Origin: an uncultured Gammaproteobacteria bacterium | GTDB lineage: Bacteria; Pseudomonadota; Gammaproteobacteria; GCA-002705445; GCA-002716945 | DNA length: 54,975 nucleotides | NCBI GenBank assembly: GCA_913045115.1 | Contig: CAJWPJ010000005.1 | Span: 1-54,975 of the forward strand | Reading direction: 5' to 3' | Part shown: positions 736 through 11,765 of the stretch, piece by piece | Layout of the letters: every line of letters begins with the position of its first letter | Position numbering within the stretch: position 1 is the first letter of the stretch | Notes under the pieces: generated by a model | Told to the model about the DNA's origin: nothing | Seen by the model: only the letters and a program-made list of their open reading frames with translations | Databases searched by the model: none | Position numbers and translations under genes: made by a program

Positions 736-3717
736 TTAATTGAGGATAGGTTTAAATGATTGGGTCACCCTAATTTCAGGATTTTTCCAAGGACCTTTAA
801 TAGAATACTCTATGCCAGCAAGTTTATTCGTGTCGAGCCCAAACTCTTTTAGGAGTCTATCGTAAAATATAGACGCAGCAGCCCCAATTGGGCCACCAAG
901 GACTGCTCCAGTAACCAAACTAGTTGAGGATAAGTCTGGAATAAATATTAGTGTTTGATCATGAGTTTCGTCAATGAGGTTTGACTTTCCTGACAGTCTC
1001 ATTTCTCCAAAACTTCCTACTATTTGCATTCTTTTCGTATCAGCAATACCATTATCTAAACTGATATCAGATGTTAAATCATCAAATCTCAGCCCCTTGG
1101 AAAAAAAATCTGAGAAGTCTAGAGATAATCTTTTAGGTATTGAGGATATGCTAAATAACCCTAGAACTTGACCAATCGCCTGCGTTTTTTTATCCAATTC
1201 GTTGATTTGACCATTTTTTATTATAAAATTTAGATCACCCTTTGCATTTGAAAATGAAAAATCATCTAAGGAGCCTTGCCACTGTGCTTTTAAACTTGCA
1301 TCTAAGTCCCCTCCCTGTAGAACACCAACATAACCTAAACCTGTTAAGGCTTGTCCGAGATTACTGCTTTTAAAAAAAGCATTGATTTCTGTTTTTTCAT
1401 TTTTATTCCTGTACCATTTTCCTGATGACTGCATTTGCAAGTAGAGATTATTAAAGTTCAATTTATCTATCGAGATATAATTTTCTGCTGGAGTAATGAT
1501 TAGGTGAACGTCATCAAGAACAGCTCTGGATGTTTTGACGTGTTTGGATTTTATTTCAATCTTAGGTAAAGATTGACCTATACCGTCACTTTTAAAATAG
1601 GCCGTATCAATATACTCAAATGATCCTGTGGCTAGATTGATAGACTGTGATGTGGTGGGATATTTAAAAAATCCTCTTGCAAGAGGAGAATTAATATTAG
1701 TATAGATATAGCCTCCATCACTTCTAAATTTGAACTTATGTTTTTCAAGAGTCACAGACATAGGGTAAGATATTTGTGGAAAGTGCTGATACTTGAAAAC
1801 AAAGTTTTTATTTTCTTTGCTAGTCTTATTGAATGGCTCAATGATATTGAGTGACACACCATTTAGATTACTTGTGACATAGGATGTTGCAATATTTTGT
1901 GTGTGATCATAAGTTGTAACTGATTTTATCTGTGTCTTTCCCTTAGTGACTCCCTGAATATCCAAATACTCACTTAAGATTTTTGTATCAAGAAAACCAG
2001 TTGATGATAATATGAACTTATGCGAGGTACTATTTGATCGAGTCATAATTCTTGAAGTAAGTTCATTACTATTAATCGAAAGATTGAATTTGTCTGAACT
2101 AATAAAATTCGAGGTTGTGTAAACATTCACTTTTGGAGATGAAAGATAGATATCATCTGAATGTTCTATCACAAGATTCTCCACATTTGCTTTGCTGAAA
2201 AATACTCCACCGTGATAATAAATATTGGCGCTCATCTTGCCCTCATAATTTATCTTTGTAAGTAACTCGCTAGAGCTTAAGAAAGGTAGAATTTTATTAA
2301 CATTGGAAGAAATTCGGATCTTAAGTGATGGCATTTTTGATGTTTTATATCCTGAAAAGGTGAAATTATAATTCTGATTGTTTTTAAATTTAGAGCCGCT
2401 GAAGTAAATAGATTTTCCTCTCGCGTTATATGCTATTTTGCCAGATACACCATCTGCTACATTTTTTTCCTGTAGATTTAGAGATAAATTACGTATGTTA
2501 ACAATGCCCCTACTTAGTGTCCCGTATATTTTTGCATTAACATTATCTAGAGAGTAGCTATCCTCAATATCAACAGAACCGTCACTAATAGTTAAACTAT
2601 AATAATCAAGCTTGCCCTTACTATTAAGATGTACTTGAATATCTTCTATATCGCCAGATAGCAACTGTGTAGGTATATTAAGGTTATACATTCCTATAAT
2701 GGGAAAATACTTCCTGATCAAATGACTATCATTTTTTTTGATAAATACGCTAATATTTTTTTTGTTATCCTTACTTATGACTATTTTGTTATTTTTTATA
2801 TTTTTGTTATCTATAACATAATTCATTCTCATAAGACTCAAGGTTTCAGATTCACTATCTTTCACAAACAAAAGATCGCTATTGACTTTACCTAGTGTAA
2901 AGATGGACTTTCCAACAGTTAGACTTAATCTATCAGTAGCGATATTTCCGAATGCCCTCGTGATATTTGTTCCGTCTAAGTTTAACCAAATCCGCAGTGA
3001 CATCTGATTAGCCTGCAGTTGTCTTAGTTGCTCAGGAAGTAGAGGGTATGGTACTTTAATAGAATTCCCACTAAGAAATATTTTACTTTTAATGGAGTCG
3101 CCTATAACAACTCCTTTGTACTGAACAGTTATCGGATTAGGGCTCGCCTGGTGCAAAAAGTCTGAATATACTTTTATGATATTATCCTGATAACTTGCCA
3201 AAAGAGTGTTTGCTTTCATAGATAATGTTTGTTGATTTATTAAATTAGTTATTCTAATGTCAGAATTATTGAGGATAATTACAGGTATATTTTGTTTTAT
3301 TTCCAAATTGGAATTAACTGGTAATTTTTTCTTATTAAGAATGATTTTGTTCTTATCATATTTCAAATCAAGTATTGTGTTATTAATTATAATTTTCCCA
3401 ATTGATAATTCCTGACTCCTTAATGTATCTAATATGTTAATGTGTATTTCGCTGCTTGGTATTTCTAACAACATTCTATTGTCGCTGTCACTCATTAATG
3501 TATTTTTCATTTTTATTATCGGGTTTAAACCAATCCATTTAACATCAAAATTCTCTATACTAGTCTCTACATTGAGTGTCTTCTTTAGTTCAGCTTTAAA
3601 GAAATGAGTGAGATCTCTTTTAAGATTAGTTGAATTTTCGGAATACAGTATGACTGTAGTGAATAAGATTAGAGAGATAAGTAGAAAATTAAGTAAAACT
3701 TTGATTGTTTTAGACAT
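736..3717 (-). CDS. yhdP: YhdP family AsmA-like envelope protein
   Basis: 993-aa ORF, N-terminal TM segment, AsmA-like C-terminus (GQVLGLFSISSIPKRLSLDFSDFFSKGLRFDDLTSDI...GGPIGAAASIFYDRLLKE). Confidence 0.85.
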   Translation of the reverse strand: MSKTIKVLLNFLLISLILFTTVILYSENSTNLKRDLTHFFKAELKKTLNVETSIENFDVKWIGLNPIIKMKNTLMSDSDNRMLLEIPSSEIHINILDTLRSQELSIGKIIINNTILDLKYDKNKIILNKKKLPVNSNLEIKQNIPVIILNNSDIRITNLINQQTLSMKANTLLASYQDNIIKVYSDFLHQASPNPITVQYKGVVIGDSIKSKIFLSGNSIKVPYPLLPEQLRQLQANQMSLRIWLNLDGTNITRAFGNIATDRLSLTVGKSIFTLGKVNSDLLFVKDSESETLSLMRMNYVIDNKNIKNNKIVISKDNKKNISVFIKKNDSHLIRKYFPIIGMYNLNIPTQLLSGDIEDIQVHLNSKGKLDYYSLTISDGSVDIEDSYSLDNVNAKIYGTLSRGIVNIRNLSLNLQEKNVADGVSGKIAYNARGKSIYFSGSKFKNNQNYNFTFSGYKTSKMPSLKIRISSNVNKILPFLSSSELLTKINYEGKMSANIYYHGGVFFSKANVENLVIEHSDDIYLSSPKVNVYTTSNFISSDKFNLSINSNELTSRIMTRSNSTSHKFILSSTGFLDTKILSEYLDIQGVTKGKTQIKSVTTYDHTQNIATSYVTSNLNGVSLNIIEPFNKTSKENKNFVFKYQHFPQISYPMSVTLEKHKFKFRSDGGYIYTNINSPLARGFFKYPTTSQSINLATGSFEYIDTAYFKSDGIGQSLPKIEIKSKHVKTSRAVLDDVHLIITPAENYISIDKLNFNNLYLQMQSSGKWYRNKNEKTEINAFFKSSNLGQALTGLGYVGVLQGGDLDASLKAQWQGSLDDFSFSNAKGDLNFIIKNGQINELDKKTQAIGQVLGLFSISSIPKRLSLDFSDFFSKGLRFDDLTSDISLDNGIADTKRMQIVGSFGEMRLSGKSNLIDETHDQTLIFIPDLSSTSLVTGAVLGGPIGAAASIFYDRLLKEFGLDTNKLAGIEYSIKGPWKNPEIRVTQSFKPILN

Positions 3718-7849: not shown

Positions 7850-8248
7850 ATGGAAAGCAAATACGAGGATATTTATAGGAAGCTTAGCGTAACCCCTACT
7901 AAACAAAGGGTTGATTTAGCGCGTCTTATATTTTCTAAAAAGCAACATTTTACTGCAAATGAGCTGATAGCTATGGCAGATAAAAAGAAACTTAATATAT
8001 CAATGGCTACCGTTTACAATACGTTATCATTATTGGAGGATAAAGGAATGTTAAAAACTATAAACATAGATAACGAGTTAAAATTCTATGACACGAACTT
8101 AGACAACCATCACCATCTTTATAACACTACGATGAGTACACTAACTGATATTGATAATGACAGGATTGTGTTTGCAGAGCTGCCCGAGTTACCTAAAACT
8201 TTGCAAATTGAAAGTACAGAAGTACTAATAAAAGCGAGAAATAAGTAA
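7850..8248 (+). CDS. irr: Fur-superfamily regulator, Irr-like
   Basis: 132 aa; winged-helix Fur signature (TPTKQRVDLARLIFSKKQHFTANELIAMADKKKLNISMATVYNTLSLLEDKGML), FYDTNLDNHHHLY histidine cluster, no CxxC zinc motifs, C-terminus ELPELPKTLQIESTEVLIKARNK resembling Irr. Confidence 0.8.
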   Translation: MESKYEDIYRKLSVTPTKQRVDLARLIFSKKQHFTANELIAMADKKKLNISMATVYNTLSLLEDKGMLKTINIDNELKFYDTNLDNHHHLYNTTMSTLTDIDNDRIVFAELPELPKTLQIESTEVLIKARNK

Positions 8249-8249
8249 T

Positions 8250-8831
8250 CTAGTTTGTTTTAAGATCATCTTGCAAACTTTTCTTCACATCATCGTCTAG
8301 AACAACTTCTTTATCGTAAGCAGTATGATTAACTCCAATCTTAACTTTTGAGCTTGATATGAATTCTGCGATATCATCTTGTCCGAGTTGAAAGCGAAGA
8401 AAATGAACTGCGGATGTTTTCTTATCAGTACTTCGATCTAGATCTTCATCCGCATGTGCAATGATTTTTTTATTACCTGACGTTAGCCACATTTGGTTCT
8501 CAATATCATGAAGTTTAAGCAGCATTTCTCTTCTTACTTCAACATCTGGATACATAATAAGCATAGTAGCTTTAAAGTTTGTTCCATCAGGTATAAGTGG
8601 GTTATATGCATCAATCTCTTCTTGAATCTCTTTTTTGTTAAAAATTTTCTCTATTCTTAACATTTCTTGAACTTGATATTTTATCGTCATAAAATCCTCA
8701 AATATAAGAACGATATTATCGCCGACATTTACAGTTCTATTTTTTTTGTGATTTATTAACTCTTTTTTTATCGAATCTCTGTGTAAATCATAATCCTCTA
8801 GAGAGAGAAGATCCTCAGGTTTTAATTTCAT
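8250..8831 (-). CDS. DUF3501 family protein
   Basis: 193 aa; IVLIFEDFMTIKYQVQEMLRIEKIF...YNPLIPDGTNFKATMLIMYPD...HFLRFQLG matches what I recall of DUF3501; linked to Fe-S oxidoreductase and rubrerythrin genes. Confidence 0.75.
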   Translation of the reverse strand: MKLKPEDLLSLEDYDLHRDSIKKELINHKKNRTVNVGDNIVLIFEDFMTIKYQVQEMLRIEKIFNKKEIQEEIDAYNPLIPDGTNFKATMLIMYPDVEVRREMLLKLHDIENQMWLTSGNKKIIAHADEDLDRSTDKKTSAVHFLRFQLGQDDIAEFISSSKVKIGVNHTAYDKEVVLDDDVKKSLQDDLKTN

Positions 8832-10156
8832 TTATTTATCCCATATGCTTTTTTAATTAAACTGATTGGATGCTCAGGTGCTACAATATTTCCCATAGAA
8901 TTTTCAATATGATGGGCAGCGAGTGAGCAGTCGCTTGTAAAGCTGTCAAATTTAGCCTCCTTGAATGCTTTGGTTATAGGACGTGCTATTTTTATAGCAA
9001 TCTCATGAGTTTCCCTCTTCACTCCATATGTTCCGTCATGTCCTGAACACCTCTCAACAGCATTAACTTTAGTTCCTGGAATTAACTCAAGAATTTTTTT
9101 AGTCAACATACCAAAATTCTGAACTCGTTGATGGCATGCTACTTGATATGAAATATCGCCTAATTGTGTTGTAAAGTCTGTATTAAGGGCACCTTCATCA
9201 TAAAGCATGTTTAGAAATTCAAATGGATCTCGGAATGATTTAGATACTTTCATTAGATCTTGATTGTCTGGGAAGAGAAGAGGAAGCTCTTGTTTATACA
9301 TCAAGACACATGAGGGTATAGGAGCTATGATTAAATAGCCTTGATCAGTGAATTTCTTAAATTTGGGTAAGTTTTTATTCATCATTTCACTAACTTGCTC
9401 TATGTCACCTAGTTCTAGTTTTGGCATACCACAACAATTATTATCAGTTATTATCTCAACTGTTATATTATTGTGTTTCAATATTTCGTAAAAGTCTTTG
9501 ATGACTCCAGGCTCATTGTAGTTATGGTAGCAAGTTGTAAATATTGCAACTTTGTGTTTTGAGTTCGTAACCTGATTAGCTAACTTGAGTTGCTGTGCAG
9601 TTTTCGCAACAAACTTTGGAAGTTTAGCCGACCTATGAACACCAAATTTTTCTAGGATTACTCTAAATATTTTATTGTTATTGAAGAAATTGACAGTACT
9701 TGAAACTATTGATCTAGAAAATATTTTACCAAGCATGTCAGTTGATGAAAGAATTTTGTCGCGGAATGAAACTTTTTTATTCGCATTTTTTATAGCTTTG
9801 CCTCTTAGCATTAAATGCGGGAAATCAATCTCCCACTCATGAGGTGGTACGTATGGACATTTCGTCATGAAACAAAGATCGCAAAGATAACAGTGATCAA
9901 CTACAGATTCAAAATCTTGGTACGCAACCCCGTCAACTTCAAAGGTTTCGGATTCATCTATTAAATCAAATAAAGTTGGAAATGAGTTGCACAAACTTAC
10001 ACATCTTCTACAACCATGACATGCATCTGCAACTCGCCTTAACTCATCTTCATACTTTGCCTCGTTCAAAAAATCTGGATTTTTCCAATCAATAATATGA
10101 CGTGTAGGCCTCTCAAGTCCTCCTTCCATTTTAGGTTTTAAGTTAAGATTATCCAT
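8828..10156 (-). CDS. (Fe-S)-binding oxidoreductase, GlpC/HdrB-like with CCG domains
   Basis: Two [4Fe-4S] motifs (CHGCRRCVSLC and CYLCDLCFMTKCP) plus CCG-type cysteines (FTTCYHNY...NNCCGMPKLE; VACHQRVQNFG...VERCSGHDG). Confidence 0.88.
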   Translation of the reverse strand: MDNLNLKPKMEGGLERPTRHIIDWKNPDFLNEAKYEDELRRVADACHGCRRCVSLCNSFPTLFDLIDESETFEVDGVAYQDFESVVDHCYLCDLCFMTKCPYVPPHEWEIDFPHLMLRGKAIKNANKKVSFRDKILSSTDMLGKIFSRSIVSSTVNFFNNNKIFRVILEKFGVHRSAKLPKFVAKTAQQLKLANQVTNSKHKVAIFTTCYHNYNEPGVIKDFYEILKHNNITVEIITDNNCCGMPKLELGDIEQVSEMMNKNLPKFKKFTDQGYLIIAPIPSCVLMYKQELPLLFPDNQDLMKVSKSFRDPFEFLNMLYDEGALNTDFTTQLGDISYQVACHQRVQNFGMLTKKILELIPGTKVNAVERCSGHDGTYGVKRETHEIAIKIARPITKAFKEAKFDSFTSDCSLAAHHIENSMGNIVAPEHPISLIKKAYGINK

Positions 10157-10214: not shown

Positions 10215-10634
10215 TTATGAGATTGATTCTAATGCCTTTGTAAAGCGATTAGCATGTGATCTCTCTGCTTTTGCTAGAGTCTCAAACCAATCAGCAATTT
10301 CATCATGACCTTCATCTCTTGCAGTTTTTGCCATACCTGGATACATATCTGTATACTCATGTGTCTCACCAGCTATTGCAGCTTTCAAGTTAGAGACACT
10401 GTCACCGATAGGCTCACCTGTAGCAGGATCTCCGCATTCTTTTTCAAGATACTCTAAATGGCCATGTGCATGTCCAGTTTCACCTTCAGCAGTTGAGCGA
10501 AAAACAGTAGCAATGTCATTTTGACCCTCTACATCAGCTTTAGCAGCGAAATATAGATACCTTCTATTTGCTTGGGATTCACCAGCAAAAGCATCTTTTA
10601 GGTTTTGTTCAGTCTTAGAACCTTTTAAACTCAT
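10215..10634 (-). CDS. Rubrerythrin
   Basis: MSLKGSKTEQNLKDAFAGESQANRRYLYFAAKADVEG...ETGHAHGHLEYLE...AAIAGETHEYTDMYPGMAKTARDEGHDEIADWFETLAKAERSHANRF; ferritin-like ExxH motifs. SD TTGGAG supports ATG at 10634 rather than the ORF start at 10646. Confidence 0.93.
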   Translation of the reverse strand: MSLKGSKTEQNLKDAFAGESQANRRYLYFAAKADVEGQNDIATVFRSTAEGETGHAHGHLEYLEKECGDPATGEPIGDSVSNLKAAIAGETHEYTDMYPGMAKTARDEGHDEIADWFETLAKAERSHANRFTKALESIS

Positions 10635-10654
10635 TATATTCTCCAAAATGATTA

Positions 10655-10671
10655 TTTAGAATGATTCTAAA
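10655..10671. promoter_or_regulatory. Perfect dyad TTTAGAA-TGA-TTCTAAA, candidate Irr box (iron control element)
   Basis: Seen directly; arms extend to 8 bp (10654-10672). Located about 20 bp upstream of the rubrerythrin ATG, overlapping the predicted -10. Confidence 0.65.
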
Positions 10672-10692
10672 TTTATAGAATATATATGTCAA
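10664..10692 (-). promoter_or_regulatory. Sigma70-like promoter for the rubrerythrin operon
   Basis: TTGACA (10692-10687), 17-nt spacer, TAGAAT (10669-10664), read on the minus strand. Confidence 0.7.
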
Positions 10693-10718: not shown

Positions 10719-10737
10719 GATAATGATTCTTGTTATC
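10719..10737. promoter_or_regulatory. Fur-box-like 19-mer GATAATGATTCTTGTTATC
   Basis: 15 of 19 positions match the classical Fur box GATAATGATAATCATTATC (counted by eye). Confidence 0.4.
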
Positions 10738-10751
10738 TTTGAGATGAGATT

Positions 10752-11765
10752 TTGAATAGATTAATATTTGAGCTATATAAAAAAATAGCATTTAAGATAG
10801 ATCCAGAAAAAGTACATGATGTCTCACTTGTTCTTCTCGAGACTGTTTATAAAAGTTATTTAGGAAAACTTTTTCATAAAAAAATAATCAAAAAAAGTAC
10901 TAAAGAATTCAACATTGACTTTGATAACCCTATTGGCCTTGCTGCAGGATTTGATAAAAATGCAGATTATCTTAATTTCACTTCCAATATAGGCTTCGGG
11001 TTCATAGAGGTAGGAACCTTAACCCCTAAAGCACAATCAGGCAATCCAAAACCAAGAATATTTAGACTGGTAGATGACAAGGCTATAATCAATCACCTAG
11101 GATTTAATAATAAAGGGATAGATTATGCAATCTCTCGTATAAGAAAATTTAATAGAAACATCCCTATAGGAATAAACATAGGTAAAAATGCTAGTACAGA
11201 TGTAAAAGATGCATTCAGAGATTATGAGTATTGTTTAAGAAAAGCTTACTCTATAGCTGATTATATTACGCTAAATATTTCATCGCCAAATACAAAGAAT
11301 TTAAGAGATTTACAAAAAGGTGAAAAAATAAATAATTTTCTTCACTCAATTAAGTCACTCCATGATAACTTGAAAAAAGTTTACAAAAAGCATACTCCAT
11401 TAGTAATCAAAATTGCACCTGATATAACGAATGAAATGATCTTTGAACTATCAAAACTACTGGATGAATATGAAATTGATGGAATAATTTGTACGAATAC
11501 AACGATTGATAAATCCAGCCTAGATGATCAATACAAAGATATCCAGGGAGGATTGAGTGGTAAGCCACTAATAGAAAAATCAAACGCTGTGCTCGGTGAA
11601 TTTTCAAAGGTTGTCAATAAAGATAAAACTATTATAGGTGTTGGAGGGGTAGATTCTTGGGAAACTGCTAACAAGAAATTTAAAATGGGTGCGAATTTAC
11701 TTCAGCTCTACACTGGTTTGGTCTATAAAGGTCCTGGTGTGATTGAGGAGATACTTCGAGGCTAA
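10752..11765 (+). CDS. pyrD: Dihydroorotate dehydrogenase (quinone), TTG start
   Basis: DFDNPIGLAAGFDKNADYLNF, VGTLTPKAQSGNPKPRIFRL, NISSPNTKNLRDLQ, GIICTNTTIDK, GVGGVDSWETANKKFKMGANLLQLYTGLVYKGP are class 2 PyrD motifs. In-frame start codon is TTG near 10752. Confidence 0.95.
   Translation: MNRLIFELYKKIAFKIDPEKVHDVSLVLLETVYKSYLGKLFHKKIIKKSTKEFNIDFDNPIGLAAGFDKNADYLNFTSNIGFGFIEVGTLTPKAQSGNPKPRIFRLVDDKAIINHLGFNNKGIDYAISRIRKFNRNIPIGINIGKNASTDVKDAFRDYEYCLRKAYSIADYITLNISSPNTKNLRDLQKGEKINNFLHSIKSLHDNLKKVYKKHTPLVIKIAPDITNEMIFELSKLLDEYEIDGIICTNTTIDKSSLDDQYKDIQGGLSGKPLIEKSNAVLGEFSKVVNKDKTIIGVGGVDSWETANKKFKMGANLLQLYTGLVYKGPGVIEEILRG

Follow-up and report, generated by a model that had tools for sequence, protein, structure and literature searches.

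The window analysed here, that is, the whole stretch of 54,975 nucleotides (contig CAJWPJ010000005.1) from an uncultured gammaproteobacterium with a genome of 1.05 Mb (G000), carries on its minus strand the gene of an aerobic-type rubrerythrin (rbr, 10215-10634), a protein of 139 amino acids counted from the ATG that matches Pfam PF02915 with 101.6 bits, has orthologs 78-99% identical across the class, and contains no rubredoxin domain. Downstream of rbr, on the same strand, follow the genes of an Fe-S oxidoreductase of the GlpC/RFO type (8828-10156) and of a DUF3501 protein (8250-8831; PF12007, 218.7 bits), the latter being the third gene of what is probably an rbr operon. Convergent to this cluster lies the gene of a Fur-family regulator of 132 amino acids (7850-8248, plus strand); pyrD (10752-11765, plus strand) is divergent from rbr and is thought to stand outside the circuit considered here.

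In front of rbr, the sequence TTTAGAATGATTCTAAA (10655-10671, plus strand) is extended by its A/T flanks to a perfect palindrome of 19 bp, ATTTAGAAT-G-ATTCTAAAT (10654-10672), the proposed operator, a box of the Irr type. The preliminary description of this DNA had reported a perfect dyad overlapping the -10 element of the rubrerythrin promoter, a TTGACA-N17-TAGAAT promoter on the minus strand about 20 bp from the start codon, and an Irr-like gene 2.4 kb away, and all three observations hold. Specifically, the exact palindrome contains the -10 hexamer TAGAAT (10664-10669, minus strand), separated by a spacer of 17 bp from the -35 hexamer TTGACA (10687-10692, minus strand), with the promoter core running from 10692 to 10664; the rubrerythrin ATG begins at 10634, 20 bp from the dyad; and the product of the gene at 7850-8248, about 2.4 kb from the dyad, falls into the Irr clade of a phylogenetic tree. 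The two hexamers together match the sigma-70 consensus at 11 of 12 positions, and the Shine-Dalgarno sequence is GGAGA. The dyad itself is better described as TTTAGAAT-S-ATTCTAAA, a form with G or C at the centre and a conserved neighbouring T/A, than as 7-N3-7.

Could such a palindrome be a product of chance, or a mere promoter or RNA element? The region is A+T-rich, and the weak matches to the dyad do not rise above chance: the window contains 14 matches with up to three mismatches (14.7 expected), and G000 contains 31 with up to two mismatches (41 for the reversed control). Hence, only near-exact copies are informative. Under a first-order Markov model, however, exact 7-N3-7 copies are expected 0.003 times in the window and 0.06 times in the 1.05-Mb genome, and the full 16-base form, with the conserved T/A beside the centre, 0.006 times per genome; G000 contains one exact copy. 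No Rfam or terminator match was found, so that an RNA element or a terminator was dropped as a candidate, and the low expectation, together with the conservation of the dyad in the family and its placement before genes (see below), disposes of the chance palindrome. The probability that we would leave to this whole group of explanations is minute: the dyad is almost certainly an operator and not an accident of composition.

Within the bacterial family of the host, the dyad is found upstream of rbr in all 20 genomes with a full rbr and, in addition, upstream of an apparent rbr pseudogene in genome G015, and these 21 dyads match 15 or 16 of 16 positions. In each of the 21 promoters, a TTGACA intact at 6/6 positions precedes the embedded TAGAAT by 16-17 bp (at one fixed spacing, at least five of the six letters would be met by chance in 0.7% of cases), and the distance from the dyad to the ATG varies from 20 to 64 bp. 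Since the geometry of the hexamers is constant while the distance to the ATG drifts, the dyad and the promoter form one conserved unit. An operator in competition with the polymerase would be expected to form just such a unit, and the architecture envisaged in the preliminary description, with the operator lying across the -10 element, is retained in 21/21 family promoters, in which the -35/-10 geometry does not change. In G015 (locus L084), where rbr is an apparent pseudogene (a 51-aa frame, TAG), both the dyad promoter and irr have been kept; in G007 (L055), irr is interrupted by a stop or frameshift.

The dyad is not confined to rbr. The exact core TTAGAMTNAKTCTAA occurs at 41 places in the 25 family genomes, as compared to 4 for the reversed control, and all 41 precede genes, namely, rbr (21), ftsH (11), a Prx5-like peroxiredoxin (6), katG (1), an IscR-like iscR (1), and proteorhodopsin (1); the gene names at the distant dyad loci were assigned by reading the translated sequences. 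Counted at a match of at least 13/16 and in the correct position, the ftsH dyad is present in 20 of 21 family genomes and in 0 of 9 from other families (family loci L270-L290; in G000, L002:1501-1517, C2:34423). Most ftsH promoters of the family have the rbr-like form TTGACA-N16-18-TAGAAT; a recognisable -35 is missing from all seven ftsH promoters of the first genus. The ftsH dyad can be seen as a family-specific rewiring of FtsH. It has been kept in G001 and G016 (assemblies 90% and 84% complete), where irr and rbr were not found, owing either to recent loss or to an assembly gap. In G010, the place of the rbr operon between pyrD and irr is taken by katG, in front of which stand a perfect dyad and TTGACT-N17-TAGAAT (L082:1243-1259, 1343-3529), so that the operator persists while the peroxidase behind it changes, in what amounts to a natural, promoter-preserving gene swap. 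Elsewhere in the family, tandem dyads, TTTTAGAATAGTTCTAAATCATTTAGAATGATTCTAAAT, are found before a peroxiredoxin gene in G019 (L264, around 1935-1990), and single genomes have a dyad before the IscR-like gene (G005; L235, C1:98334) and before proteorhodopsin (G001; L233, C6:23197); because neither irr nor rbr was detected in G001, its proteorhodopsin dyad may be due to chance.

The preliminary description had looked to a genome-wide scan for further dyads at iron genes. In G000, this expectation was disappointed: the other iron genes show no enrichment of the motif, and the only other near-exact promoter copy is that of ftsH, an outcome that, taken literally, is one half of what the preliminary description had named as refuting its interpretation. 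Apart from rbr and ftsH, the 31 places with up to two mismatches, all of which were inspected, either fall within genes or are weak and stand alone, as does a copy with two mismatches and no symmetry 38 bp ahead of a TonB-receptor-like gene. A broad iron regulon in this genome was accordingly discarded; the regulon of G000 appears to consist of rbr and ftsH. In our judgement, the evidence from across the genomes outweighs the lack of enrichment at the iron genes of G000.

Which protein, then, might occupy the operator? The proposed cognate regulator, encoded at 7850-8248, gives its best matches to the NCBIfam models IrrA (115.5 bits, E=1.6e-33) and Irr (112.5 bits), in both cases under the curated cut-offs of 150 bits for IrrA and 170 bits for Irr (NF045677, NF045678), for which reason we refer to it as an Irr-clade or Irr-type protein and not as an IrrA equivalog. 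In a tree of 86 Fur-family proteins, Irr is split from the Fur-like proteins with a support of 100/99, and the Irr proteins of the family group with those of beta- and gammaproteobacteria (96/92), the inner forks of the tree resting on few columns. Judged by its sequence, the predicted protein groups with Irr and not with Fur. Its residues 87-89, HHH, correspond to the HXH haem motif, which by a strict pattern is present in at least 61 of 64 Irr sequences. There is no cysteine among its 132 residues and, hence, neither a haem regulatory motif of the Bradyrhizobium type nor a CxxC zinc site. The only further member of the Fur family encoded in G000 is a classical Fur; a ferrochelatase gene was also found. 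The Irr protein of Gammaproteobacteria bacterium RS590 (L091) is identical to that of the family member G019.

The link between the dyad and irr was followed in a comparison that took in more than 130 genomes overall. Eighty named genomes with rbr were each searched whole with the IrrA model, the scores of which are bimodal (at least 110 bits for Irr, at most 74 bits for Fur and others), and 79 of these were counted, G111 being excluded because its hit is cut at a contig end. With an rbr dyad defined as a match of at least 13/16 to TTTAGAMTNAKTCTAAA within 250 bp upstream of rbr, the dyad is present in 29 of the 34 genomes with irr and in 4 of the 45 without it (Fisher p=4e-12), so that five genomes have irr and no rbr dyad, and four have the dyad and no irr. 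Since related genomes are not independent, the count was split by group: the figures are 17/21 with irr against 0/5 without it in Alphaproteobacteria, and 12/13 against 4/37 (p=2e-7) among the other proteobacterial or unplaced genomes, and a separate sample of one genome per gammaproteobacterial family yielded 8/9 against 1/5 (p=0.02). In several surveyed genomes, irr is located far from rbr or on a different contig, so that simple linkage does not explain the co-occurrence. The half-site is TTTAGAAT in the family, in Alphaproteobacteria, and in SAR11, and mostly TTTAGACT in beta- and gammaproteobacterial relatives. The Irr-box consensus that we used was drawn from published papers and from the alphaproteobacterial rbr sites of the survey, which are TTTAGAATNATTCTAAA-like. 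The identification of the dyad with the alphaproteobacterial Irr box (ICE), made in the preliminary description, is thus supported by the conservation of the dyad, by its co-occurrence with irr, and by the place of the protein in the Irr clade, with the qualifications that the host is a gammaproteobacterium and that the protein scores under the Irr and IrrA cut-offs.

The same survey bears on the possibility that Fur, or some unrelated regulator, is what binds the dyad, with irr co-occurring for another reason, such as a shared iron ecology. The 7-1-7 plan is, indeed, common to Fur-family sites, and the evidence on irr is one of association and not of binding. Nearly all genomes without irr, however, have a Fur-type gene, and most of them nonetheless have no dyad; Fur, being present almost throughout, does not explain the pattern and was rejected as the dyad binder. 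Besides, a separate Fur-box-like sequence lies 47 bp away, and no convincing OxyR was found in the family. We regard an operator of this kind as improbable.

The Fur-box-like 19-mer, GATAATGATTCTTGTTATC (10719-10737), matches the classical Fur consensus GATAATGATAATCATTATC at 16 of 19 positions on the minus strand; it is centred at about -71 from the inferred transcription start and lies upstream of the dyad. The 47-bp gap between the two is exact in 14 genomes (8 members of the genus that have rbr and 6 of a second genus), that is, it is constant in two genera despite drift elsewhere; in a third genus, the site is weaker and lies 44-46 bp from the dyad. In genus members, 0-1 of 200 shuffles score as well. 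Neither G012 nor the region upstream of katG in G010 has the site; in G010, pyrD is still divergent although the box is gone, which, for this one genome, disfavours a pyrD element and favours a box tied to rbr. The region around -71 is a usual position for upstream activators. The site suggests a second, Fur-dependent input, and we infer, with moderate strength, that Fur contributes to the control of rbr; the box is possibly a site of activation by Fur.

Taken together, these observations make it, in our opinion, quite probable that the palindrome serves as operator for the Irr-type regulator encoded at 7850-8248, which would act by haem-released occlusion of the -10 element and control a small peroxide-defence regulon. 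A dimer of apo-Irr on the palindrome would cover the -10 element of the rubrerythrin/Fe-S oxidoreductase/DUF3501 promoter and block RNA polymerase; haem, by binding at the HXH site, would release Irr, the signal being either sufficiency of iron and haem or a haem status altered by peroxide, so that the iron-dependent peroxidase would be produced only with iron available or under peroxide demand. At ftsH, the dimer would likewise occlude the -10 element, and the same operator on ftsH, peroxiredoxin, and katG would make up a small regulon of peroxide and protein damage in a family without a convincing OxyR. The site, the constancy of its promoter geometry, its tracking of irr, and its further promoter copies were observed, whereas Irr binding, repression, and the haem signal are inferred. 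Several observations speak against this reading: the window protein scores under the Irr and IrrA cut-offs and has no cysteine-containing haem regulatory motif, G001 and G016 keep the ftsH dyad without a detected irr, nine genomes of the survey have either irr or the rbr dyad but not both, and the ftsH promoters of the first genus have no recognisable -35. There is a precedent in Alphaproteobacteria, where the ICE boxes of mbfA lie over the promoter core or over the transcription start and serve as sites of repression (PMC3413700, PMC7540006), the half-site in Sinorhizobium meliloti being TTCTAA (PMC7540006). An Irr-type protein that binds the dyad but activates rbr would have parallels too, given that directly activated Irr targets are common (PMC7762939). 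Yet, the dyad covers the -10 element in 21/21 rbr promoters, so that the bound protein would block the polymerase, and hexamers this close to the consensus would need no activator; we rate activation as scarcely probable.

The signal is the weakest step of the mechanism. In Candidatus Pelagibacter ubique, the relatives of which have a weaker dyad at rbr, iron limitation raised the rbr mRNA 1.57-fold (PMC2864753), contrary to simple repression at low iron. An alternative shares the Irr operator with the explanation preferred here and differs in the signal, the decisive one being peroxide, as for PerR or OxyR, and not iron supply. The recurrent targets, rbr, katG, peroxiredoxin, and ftsH, are all genes of peroxide defence or protein damage and not of iron uptake or haem synthesis; mbfA, an Irr target of Rhodobacter sphaeroides, is up about 9-fold with peroxide (PMC3413700); the Fur family of G000 consists of Fur and Irr only; and no convincing OxyR was found in 25/25 family genomes, the sole match, in G010 (E=9e-4), being too weak to count, whereas many other genomes of the class give a strong one. 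On the other hand, the Irr proteins studied to date respond to haem (PMC7762939), and both signals may be coupled through oxidation of haem. A peroxide signal is, in our estimate, a real possibility that nevertheless falls short of an even chance. We would be similarly tentative about extending the haem-released repression preferred here to a scheme in which the Irr-type protein is, throughout this family of small genomes without a detectable OxyR, a master repressor of peroxide and haem stress over any peroxidase that a given genome encodes (rbr, katG, or peroxiredoxin) and over the membrane protease FtsH, with rbr under a two-input gate that combines activation by Fur at about -71 and occlusion by Irr at -10.

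By comparison, then, an operator can be assigned to the Irr clade of beta- and gammaproteobacteria, with the regulon of one family proposed to consist of peroxide-defence genes and ftsH. Such an assignment would explain how peroxide defence is controlled in genomes without a detectable OxyR, and it predicts how the widespread aerobic rubrerythrin/RFO/DUF3501 cluster is regulated. According to a 2020 review, Irr is, few exceptions aside, confined to Alphaproteobacteria (PMC7762939); outside that class, Acidithiobacillus has been predicted to encode a protein of the Irr type (PMC2631029). In the literature that we searched, outside of which most subscription journals remained, we found no description of an Irr operator in front of rbr or ftsH in a gammaproteobacterium. 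The joint occurrence of rubrerythrin, RFO, and DUF3501 genes as an aerobic-type cluster has been described (PMC5114695), and the window has the same three genes together; a word search of that paper gave no mention of promoters or regulation, whereas the cluster of the window is here given a proposed operator.

As a kind of circuit, Irr/ICE is already known. The dyad of the window has inverted TTAGAA/TTCTAA half-sites with Fur-family symmetry, and resembles the alphaproteobacterial ICE in its TTCTAA-type half-sites, its 7-1-7-like symmetry, its overlap with the promoter core, and its rubrerythrin/ferritin-like target (PMC3413700, PMC7540006). It differs in the gammaproteobacterial host, in the target, which is a soluble aerobic-type rbr/RFO/DUF3501 operon and not MbfA, in the further targets of the family (ftsH, peroxiredoxin, and katG), and in that the beta- and gammaproteobacterial relatives mostly have TTTAGACT half-sites. 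Similarly, the window protein shares with Irr and IrrA (NF045677, NF045678) the best-scoring models, the clade, the HXH motif, and the ATVYNTL recognition region, but its 112-116 bits stay under the cut-offs of 170 and 150, and it has neither a cysteine nor the haem regulatory motif. The PerR and OxyR regulons have similar targets, namely, rubrerythrin, katG, and peroxiredoxin; unlike these systems, the family has no convincing OxyR, and the protein of the window groups with Irr and not with the Fur/PerR-like outgroups.
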